Shown: positions 61,897-64,000 of the stretch, one piece after another
Layout of the letters: every line of letters starts with the position of its first letter
Position numbering within the stretch: position 1 is the first letter of the stretch
DNA from: Pseudonocardia oceani
GTDB taxonomy: Bacteria > Actinomycetota > Actinomycetes > Mycobacteriales > Pseudonocardiaceae
Direction: 5' to 3'
Length of the DNA stretch: 64,000 bases
NCBI RefSeq assembly: GCF_019263585.2
Contig: NZ_JADQDF010000001.1
Location: 5,466,501 to 5,530,500 of the forward strand
Notes under the pieces: generated by a model
What the model was told of the DNA's origin: nothing
Database searches by the model: none
Seen by the model: the letters and a program-made list of their open reading frames with translations, nothing else
Program-made: the position numbers and the translations under genes

Positions 61897-63153
61897 TCAC
61901 GGAGCCGGGATGCGGGGCGTGTCGCCGGGATCGGCCACCGCGCCCGCGCGCTCGCGGCGCGTCACCCCGGGAGCCGACAGGGCGTAGACGGCCTCCATGA
62001 GCGGGGGCCAGTCGTCGCGCAGCGCGTCGCGCCCCATGAACAGCCCCAGGTGCCCACCGGTCGCGGTCCGGCGGGTGACCTGCGGGGCAGGCGTGCCCAC
62101 CGCGTCGGCCGCGGCGAACAGCTGCGCGGGCGGCGTGATGTGGTCGGTCGACCCGGCCAGCAGGAACAGCGGACAGGTGATGTTCGCGAGGTCGGCGCGG
62201 CGCCCGTCGACGACGAGGTCGCCCGAGATGAGCTCGTTGCCGTGGAACAGGTGCTCGACGAGCCACAGGTAGAACGCGCCCGGGATGTCCTGGGTGTGCT
62301 TGAACCAGTCCTCGAACACGCGGTAGCGCTCGACGTGCGCGGCGTCGTCGATGTTCTCCAGGAGCTGGAGCTGGCGCGACACCTCCGACTGCGGCTGGAT
62401 CGCGACGAAGTTGGCGAGCACGGCGGCGCCGGGCATGTTGCCCCCGCCCATGCGCACCAGCGCGCGGTAGGGTGCGAGGCCCAGCGCGCCGGTCATCGCG
62501 CGGGTCGAGGAGGCGATCACCGACTCGCCGGCGTGGAAGTCGATGGGCGCGCCCGCCAAGGTCAGGGTGTGGACGCGCTCGGGGTGCAGCGCCGCGTAGA
62601 TCGCGGCGAGCCACCCGCCCTGGCAGTCGCCGACGAGGTTGGCGCGCCCGCCCATGCGCCGGATCGACCGGTCGATGAGGTCGAGGTAGTCGGTGATGCC
62701 GACGTCGCGGGTGGCCGTGGTGGCGGGGCGCCACTCCAGCGCGTAGAGCTTCGTCAGCCCGGCGGCGGCGAGCACGGCGAGCTGGCTCTGGCGCGGGGAG
62801 AAGTCGATGACGTGGCTCGAGTGCCCGGCCTGCGGCGGCAGCACCAGCGTCGGCACGACGTCGTCGTGGGCGTCGGCGGGTGCGGTGAAGTCGCGCAGGT
62901 GCGCGAACGGCGTCGACAGCGTGATCGTGTTCTCGCGGTGCCAGCGGGGCTCGCGGCGGTCGGCCATCGTGCTCCACCACAGCGCGCCGCGGGCGAGGTT
63001 CGCCAGCGGGGTCCGGGGGCGGGTCACGGCGTCGAGCCACAGGTTGCCCGCCGAGCGCGTGAGCTCGACGGTCGTGCGGGCCGCCGCGTTGGCGTTGTAG
63101 GCCGCGAGGTGGCGCAGGGCGCCACCGATTCCGGTGGAGGTGGGTGCGGTCAT
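61897..63153 (-). CDS. PHA synthase family alpha/beta hydrolase
   Basis: 418 residues. The lipase-like box has Cys instead of Ser, V-G-D-C-Q-G-G-W (Cys 177), which defines the PHA synthase family; A-G-S-T-D-H-I-T-P-P (Asp) and T-G-G-H-L-G-L-F (His) complete the triad. It is shorter than class I PHA synthases (about 560-600), missing most of the N-terminal domain, so it may be a divergent synthase or a hydrolase. ATG chosen at M-T-A-P-T-S. Divergent from the phaC gene, sharing a promoter region with four operator-like repeats. Confidence 0.85.
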   Translation of the reverse strand: MTAPTSTGIGGALRHLAAYNANAAARTTVELTRSAGNLWLDAVTRPRTPLANLARGALWWSTMADRREPRWHRENTITLSTPFAHLRDFTAPADAHDDVVPTLVLPPQAGHSSHVIDFSPRQSQLAVLAAAGLTKLYALEWRPATTATRDVGITDYLDLIDRSIRRMGGRANLVGDCQGGWLAAIYAALHPERVHTLTLAGAPIDFHAGESVIASSTRAMTGALGLAPYRALVRMGGGNMPGAAVLANFVAIQPQSEVSRQLQLLENIDDAAHVERYRVFEDWFKHTQDIPGAFYLWLVEHLFHGNELISGDLVVDGRRADLANITCPLFLLAGSTDHITPPAQLFAAADAVGTPAPQVTRRTATGGHLGLFMGRDALRDDWPPLMEAVYALSAPGVTRRERAGAVADPGDTPRIPAP

Positions 63154-63190
63154 CACGGGCTCCCGGGTGCGGGACGGCAGCGTCGCCGTC

Positions 63191-63345
63191 GTTACCCGAC
63201 GGTAGGTGGCGCTAGGCATGTGACGCAACAGCTGGCTTACCCGGAGGTAGCGTTCGGGATGTCAAGCACCTACGTGACCACGCTCGCACGTGACCTGTGA
63301 CCAGCAGTTATGTCTACCCGTGGGTAAGCCGTCACCCTGGGGTAG
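63191..63345. promoter_or_regulatory. four TACC-N4-GGTA dyads in the divergent PHA promoter
   Basis: Copies at 63193-63204 (TACCCGACGGTA), 63238-63249 (TACCCGGAGGTA), 63315-63326 (TACCCGTGGGTA) and 63333-63344 (CACCCTGGGGTA, one change). The first three also share flanking G/C-TT or a leading C and trailing AG/AAG. All lie between the two start codons, so one regulator probably governs both genes. Confidence 0.7.
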
Positions 63346-63390
63346 TCCCCGTGTGCCACGAGCACCGACATCGACGACGAAGGAGTTGCC

Positions 63391-64000
63391 GTGACCCAGA
63401 CGAGCGACCCGACCAGCACGCTCCAGCGGACCGCATCGGGGGTGGTGAACGGCGTGCGCGACCTCCTCGACCCCGGTGCGCTGGCCGCCCGGGTCGATCC
63501 CGTGGCGTTCGGCGGGGCGCTCGGCGACGTCGCGAAGGGGCTGCTGGCGCACCCGCTACCGGTGGCGCGCCGCACCGCGGGTCTCGCCGCCGGCTCGGGC
63601 CGGGCCGCGCTGGCCGCGCTCGCGCGCAGCGTCGGCGGCCACGGCGCCGGGCCCGCGCCGCTGCCCGACAAGGACCGCCGCTACGCCGACCCGGCATGGG
63701 AGGGCAACGCGTACTACTACCTGCTCCGCCAGCAGCACGCGCTGTTCGCCGAGTACCTGGAGGCGGTGGCGAAGGGCGTCGAGCTGAAGCCCGTCTCCCG
63801 GCGGAAGATCGACTTCCTGGTGCAGCAGGCCGTCGAGGCGACCTCGCCGGTCAACTGGCCGTGGTCGAACCCGACGATGGTGAAGAAGGCGTTCGAGACC
63901 GGCGGGCAGAGCCTGTTCCGCGGGAGCCGCAACCTGCTGCGCGACGTCGTCGGCGGCGGCGGGATGCCGCGCCAGACGACGCCCGGCGAGTTCGAGGTCG
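63391..64000 (+). CDS. phaC: poly(3-hydroxyalkanoate) synthase, N-terminal part (3' partial)
   Basis: The frame opens with GTG, preceded by AAGGAG 6 bases upstream, and stays open to the window end (203 codons seen). It carries the PhaC N-terminal domain: D-R-R-Y-A-D-P-A-W-E-G-N-A-Y-Y-Y-L-L-R-Q-Q (about 98), then V-E-A-T-S-P-V-N-W-P-W-S-N-P (about 150) and G-G-Q-S-L-F-R-G. The catalytic half with its Cys box lies beyond the window. It polymerises hydroxyacyl-CoA into storage granules. It diverges from the shorter family member at 61897. Confidence 0.88.
   Translation, partial: MTQTSDPTSTLQRTASGVVNGVRDLLDPGALAARVDPVAFGGALGDVAKGLLAHPLPVARRTAGLAAGSGRAALAALARSVGGHGAGPAPLPDKDRRYADPAWEGNAYYYLLRQQHALFAEYLEAVAKGVELKPVSRRKIDFLVQQAVEATSPVNWPWSNPTMVKKAFETGGQSLFRGSRNLLRDVVGGGGMPRQTTPGEFEV

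Follow-up and report, generated by a model that had tools for sequence, protein, structure and literature searches.

Storage polymer genes of proteobacteria are under granule- or fatty-acid-responsive control by regulators of the PhaR and PsrA/PhaF types, whose operators and protein lineages differ from those considered here. The closest described system for the present locus is FasR (Rv3208) with its fas-acpS target in Mycobacterium (PMC7382501, PMC7652896). According to these papers, FasR activates fas in mycobacteria and its binding is disrupted by long-chain acyl-CoA (PMC7382501), three inverted repeats before fas are bound by the protein (PMC7382501, PMC7652896), and M. tuberculosis FasR was crystallised with a 25-bp DNA fragment, TACCCGTACGTAGAACTCGCCAGTA, neighbouring dimers being arranged on DNA at roughly 90 degrees (PMC7382501). 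The Pseudonocardia promoter described here resembles the mycobacterial system in its orthologous regulator, its dyad core and its three sites per promoter, and some relatives (L096) share the 13-bp tandem spacing. It differs in its predicted target, which is phaC with a PhaC-like hydrolase gene and not FAS-I, for which no gene was found in this genome, and in its sites being 45 and 77 bp apart.

Another point of comparison is MLDSR of Rhodococcus jostii RHA1, presumably an XRE-type relative of the protein whose gene follows phaC here. In its report (PMC5504291), MLDSR is tied to a storage body, like the XRE input proposed below, whereas its published box, GNT(T/A)GCTNNTGCTANC, differs from both dyads at our promoter. 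Among the matches listed in our literature searches, which covered open papers, none described PHA genes as controlled by FasR or a FasR regulon centred on acyl-CoA use without detected FAS-I. FasR and its mycobacterial target are thus familiar, and the proposed array at PHA genes and acyl-CoA-use regulon are new as far as those matches go.

The dyad array between phaC and a divergent hydrolase gene

The window, meaning the whole 64-kb stretch of DNA analysed (C3:5466501-5530500), belongs to a genome of 6.82 Mb in three contigs. It contains an intergenic gap of 237 bp between the start codons of a hydrolase gene (ATG at 63153, minus strand) and phaC (GTG at 63391, plus strand). Three exact dyads lie in this gap, A (TACCCGACGGTA, 63193-63204), B (TACCCGGAGGTA, 63238-63249) and C (TACCCGTGGGTA, 63315-63326), each a predicted FasR operator, together with a fourth copy carrying one mismatch (CACCCTGGGGTA, 63333-63344); successive copies start 45, 77 and 18 bp apart. 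The first-pass annotation had described three perfect and one near-perfect dyads in a 237-bp divergent promoter, with 45 bp between the first pair and 18 bp between the last, and the motif scan and the two start codons reproduced all of this.

The exact motif TACCNNNNGGTA (TACC-N4-GGTA) occurs in the window at three sites only, all in the array. When one mismatch was allowed, 9 matches were obtained against a shuffle mean of 4.35, and the loose motif is not rare in the window, since 4 of 100 shuffles reached 9. The genome-wide search that had been suggested as a check gave 20 exact sites, three of them in the array, against 10 for the reversed control pattern, and 39 sites for the looser TACY-N4-RGTA against 22 for its reversed control. 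Under random uniform placement, the expected number of triples within 134 bp is 1.3e-6 for the exact sites and 1.1e-5 for the looser ones. A like density of the motif in random intergenic regions of the genome, which the first-pass annotation had named as grounds for refutation, was not seen.

Both flanking genes had been assigned to the PHA synthase family, an assignment that holds for the right-hand gene and, by domain scores, fails for the left-hand one. The product of phaC (580 aa; plus strand, 63391 to the window end at 64000 and beyond, complete at L016:1391-3133) has a PhaC_N domain scoring 193.1 bits against a cut-off of 23.7, and phaC of Pseudonocardia hydrocarbonoxydans is 92% identical to it; relatives such as this one place the genome in or near Pseudonocardia. 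The left gene (61897-63153, minus strand) encodes a PhaC-like alpha/beta-hydrolase of 418 aa with a GDCQGG box, for which the Pfam search returned DUF3141, PHB_depo_C and Abhydrolase_1 and no PhaC_N, and which scores far under every NCBIfam PHA cut-off (best 118.5 bits against 365.3). Residues G175, C177, Q178, G179 and G180 of the box are invariant in 16 homologues. When its AlphaFold model (mean pLDDT 85.4) was compared with the PDB, the first 15 matches were PHA synthase chains (TM-scores of about 0.4-0.6, 15-19% identity), followed by other alpha/beta-hydrolases; as modelled, its fold is nearest to PHA synthases. A second phaC homologue in the genome (C3:5555430-5557127, 38% identity) has no TACY-N4-RGTA nearby.

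We surveyed the array in 110 phaC loci (30 from one search and 80 of 264 matches), some of which represent the same place twice. A divergent upstream hydrolase gene was present in 45, and removal of 15 with duplicate intergenic sequence left 30 distinct promoters. Throughout the genus the dyads take the form TACY-N4-RGTA with steady spacing: three exact copies were found in 23 promoters, two in 3, one in 3 and none in 1, amounting to 78. In the three-copy promoters the A-B spacing is 43-46 bp in 23 of 23, and from B to C it measures 74-78 bp in 19 promoters, 65 bp in another 3 and 123 bp in the last. Among the 23 other half-site orderings, scanned in the same 30 promoters, TAYC, a pattern that contains TACC-N4-GGTA, gave 36 matches, YACT gave 9, two gave 1 each, and 19 gave none. 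Both sequence and spacing hold at loci with a PhaC of about 66-70% identity. The earlier suggestion that such an array gives cooperative control of storage polymer synthesis is supported in so far as the genus conserves a regulatory array at this PHA promoter; cooperativity and an effect on the polymer are predictions. The genus alignment keeps dyads A, B and C; the TAC/GTA ends of the fourth, which lies 18 bp from C, are kept only in near relatives, and this copy is not supported as a conserved site.

The dyads were also sought where the gene arrangement differs. No exact dyad was found in 420 bp at any of nine loci where phaC and an XRE gene occur and the hydrolase is missing, and the loci of the distant hydrolase homologues L100 (53%) and L092 (46%) contain no dyad. 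These results suggest that the dyads go with this particular hydrolase promoter, within or near the genus. In P. humida (L096), the hydrolase gene does not adjoin the phaC homologue, and two exact dyads (L096:8052-8076) lie just upstream of the hydrolase with the same 13-bp offset as in the FasR crystal DNA. The gene divergent from the P. humida hydrolase (L096:8304-8705) looks phasin-like by eye; its product had no Pfam match and only a marginal match in the genome under study (E 0.0098).

An XRE-family helix-turn-helix gene (124 aa, L016:3158-3532, outside the window, read from open frames) lies 24 bp after phaC, and all 45 loci that have the divergent hydrolase show such a gene behind phaC. 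Many other actinobacteria likewise have an XRE homologue close to phaC, frequently on its upstream side. The genus alignment has another dyad, GCTTG-N6-CAAGC, after dyad B (L277-L280 among the loci), which in the window is degenerate, with two changes in its left half (63252-63267), and is a possible XRE regulator site. Exact copies occur once each in four relatives (G037, G014, G052 and G001), always in this promoter, and none was found genome-wide in our genome. The argument from this dyad rests on position and not on number, because its reversed control gave 3-10 matches in the same four genomes. From its placement, it may serve the XRE protein encoded after phaC.

The same dyad at fasR, fas and acyl-CoA genes

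A TetR-family gene away from the array (C3:3861293-3861994) encodes a protein scoring 210 bits against M. tuberculosis FasR (PDB 6o6p), with the segment SKPVLYQHF identical, and 267.9 bits against the FasR equivalog model NF053731 of NCBIfam, under its cut-off of 330. Judged by these scores, the candidate regulator is an orthologue of FasR and not a mycobacterial FasR equivalog. It is present in 40 of 40 genus genomes, and across the order 99 of 101 genomes have a FasR. One of the 17 exact sites outside the array lies just upstream of this fasR gene. In addition, fasR is preceded by an exact dyad at 28 of the 30 genus loci read (30 of 40 matches), that of the genome under study included; one of the two misses has only 108 bp of upstream DNA and the other has a one-mismatch copy. 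The dyad runs into a -10-like box, TA(A/G)GNT, in 25 of the 30. Elsewhere in the order 17 of 29 fasR loci have it, comprising all 11 loci of the family's other genera and 6 of 18 from other families. The TAYC control was matched in 22 of 30 genus loci, 0 of 11 in the family set and 4 of 18 beyond, and the other orderings gave 0 or 1.

FAS-I (PF08354) was detected in 11 of the 101 order genomes, all of one family, and the PF08354 search of the genome under study gave no FAS-I match. We read the upstream regions of fas in all 11, where start codons were assigned mechanically and distances are rough. An exact or one-mismatch dyad precedes fas in 11 of 11, and an exact one in 5 of 5 FAS-I genomes outside genus g13 (permuted controls: 3, 2 and 1 of 5). 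In g13, at least three one-mismatch copies were found in 6 of 6 fas promoters, two of which form TACCCGTGCGTAGAACTCGCCAGTA or a close variant in all six genomes and so closely resemble the 25-bp crystal DNA, and a further-off exact copy is present in 4 of 6. The number of one-mismatch copies in g13 proves little, because the permuted YACT pattern is nearly as frequent (mean of 2.83 per region against 3.17 for the dyad), and this control slightly lowered our confidence both in FasR as the regulator and in its ancestral role proposed below. The weight of the g13 evidence, as we read these sequences, is in the match to the FasR crystal DNA and not in copy number. The DNA helix twists by 34.3 degrees per bp. 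The crystal DNA (PMC7382501) consists of two one-mismatch copies of the dyad 13 bp apart, an offset of about 86 degrees that would fit dimers at roughly 90 degrees. The three inverted repeats of the FasR papers would correspond to the three dyads seen here at fas.

Besides fasR and fas, the motif marks etfB: an exact dyad lies within 300 bp of the gene in 29 of 30 family loci (L282-L311; 30 of 40 matches), against 7 of 30 for the best permuted control, and the one locus without it, L283, is from the same genus. The etfB site is very stable across the family and seems worth a study of its own. Dyads were also seen within about 20 kb at etfB, a GT4 glycosyltransferase gene and a methyltransferase-like gene (L004, L189, L190), a gene set that we presume to resemble the mycobacterial methylglucose-lipopolysaccharide locus.

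All 39 TACY-N4-RGTA sites of the genome were inspected. Among the 36 outside the array, about 11 lie at fasR or at acyl-CoA/lipid genes: etfB, a thioesterase/enoyl-CoA hydratase pair, a 4Fe-4S oxidoreductase, WS/DGAT, a zinc dehydrogenase (presumably Ccr), a DUF4442 protein, thiolase and three acyl-CoA dehydrogenases, a count that for two of the dehydrogenases and DUF4442 supposes a start codon slightly downstream of the mechanical one. The remaining sites, about 25, are at other genes or at none visible, with no lipid tie seen. Relatives were compared by tblastx with a strict cut-off. In G009 (among 20 of its 49 sites), eight of them are found again in the same position or no more than 24 bp from it, namely those of two acyl-CoA dehydrogenases, etfB, WS/DGAT, a glycosyltransferase, a methyltransferase-like gene, the zinc dehydrogenase and one other. 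In G142, a member of another genus (among 44 of 62 sites), those at etfB and DUF4442 do so within 5 bp. Genome-wide counts of TACY-N4-RGTA and its reversed control in four relatives were 49 and 25, 50 and 37, 41 and 13, and 62 and 14; the excess is weak in the relative with 50 against 37.

Candidate regulators of the array

The first-pass annotation had assigned the array to an unknown regulator, which is probably wrong: the motif of the conserved array matches the sites found at fasR, fas and etfB as well as the FasR crystal DNA. We consider it probable, from these sequence matches, that the dyads are operators of FasR, an acyl-CoA-sensing TetR protein, with mainly repressive control of storage. 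A different TetR regulator with the same core might instead read the array and own the fasR site. TetR proteins are numerous, and G142 has two TACCGATCGGTA in the stretch separating an SDR gene from another TetR gene (L237:1001-1048), suggesting that other TetR proteins may use a like core; this alternative is nevertheless unlikely, as a single regulator would account for the fasR sites family-wide, those at fas in genomes that have FAS-I, and the FasR crystal DNA.

The XRE protein itself could bind TACY-N4-RGTA and regulate its own operon, a proposal favoured by the presence of its gene after phaC at all 45 loci with the divergent hydrolase and by the fact that a short dyad with an N4 centre suits an XRE dimer. 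We regard it as very unlikely, because the nine hydrolase-less loci without an exact dyad have phaC with a close XRE protein (the same SNAYLSQ(V/I)ERG segment), because the motif is also found at fasR, fas and etfB, where no XRE gene was seen nearby, and because the phaC promoter has the other dyad, GCTTG-N6-CAAGC, found once per genome in four relatives. That the array is a functionless chance cluster is the least credible reading. The genome does contain 20 exact copies, several outside visible promoters, but the genome counts, the minute expectation for triples and the conservation of sequence and spacing in the genus led us to reject it, with virtually no weight left to it.

FasR would then act as follows. 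One FasR dimer would bind each TACY-N4-RGTA, placing three dimers on the divergent phaC/hydrolase promoter. FasR would occupy A, B and C when acyl-CoA is scarce and, by analogy with M. tuberculosis FasR, would be released by long-chain acyl-CoA. It would mainly repress acyl-CoA-using and storage genes, so that a rise in acyl-CoA would make FasR leave and switch on acyl-CoA use and storage. For this promoter we infer that FasR binds, which ligand it answers to, in which direction it acts and how PHA is affected, and mainly repression is suggested by the closeness of the dyads to starts, or their overlap with a -10-like box, at acyl-CoA-using genes and fasR. A sigma-70 consensus scan of 63100-63420 placed no promoter at the array, and FasR might therefore activate phaC instead.

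Since no FAS-I was found in the genome, FasR may here govern acyl-CoA use and storage, with etf, acyl-CoA dehydrogenases, thiolase, WS/DGAT and phaC as its predicted targets. A broader reading, which we hold tentatively and stop just short of favouring, is that FasR was ancestrally an acyl-CoA gauge over oxidation and storage (etf, acyl-CoA dehydrogenases, thiolase, WS/DGAT and PHA synthase) and not a fatty-acid-synthase activator, was recruited to FAS-I where that enzyme is present, and at phaC was joined with a private XRE operator into a two-input storage switch.

For PHA storage in actinobacteria, this yields a candidate regulator together with an operator code, and it points to a possible role of FasR where FAS-I is absent. 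The operator code predicts target genes from sequence across the order, including mycobacteria. If FasR reads the dyads, polymer storage would be tied to the fatty-acid state of the cell.
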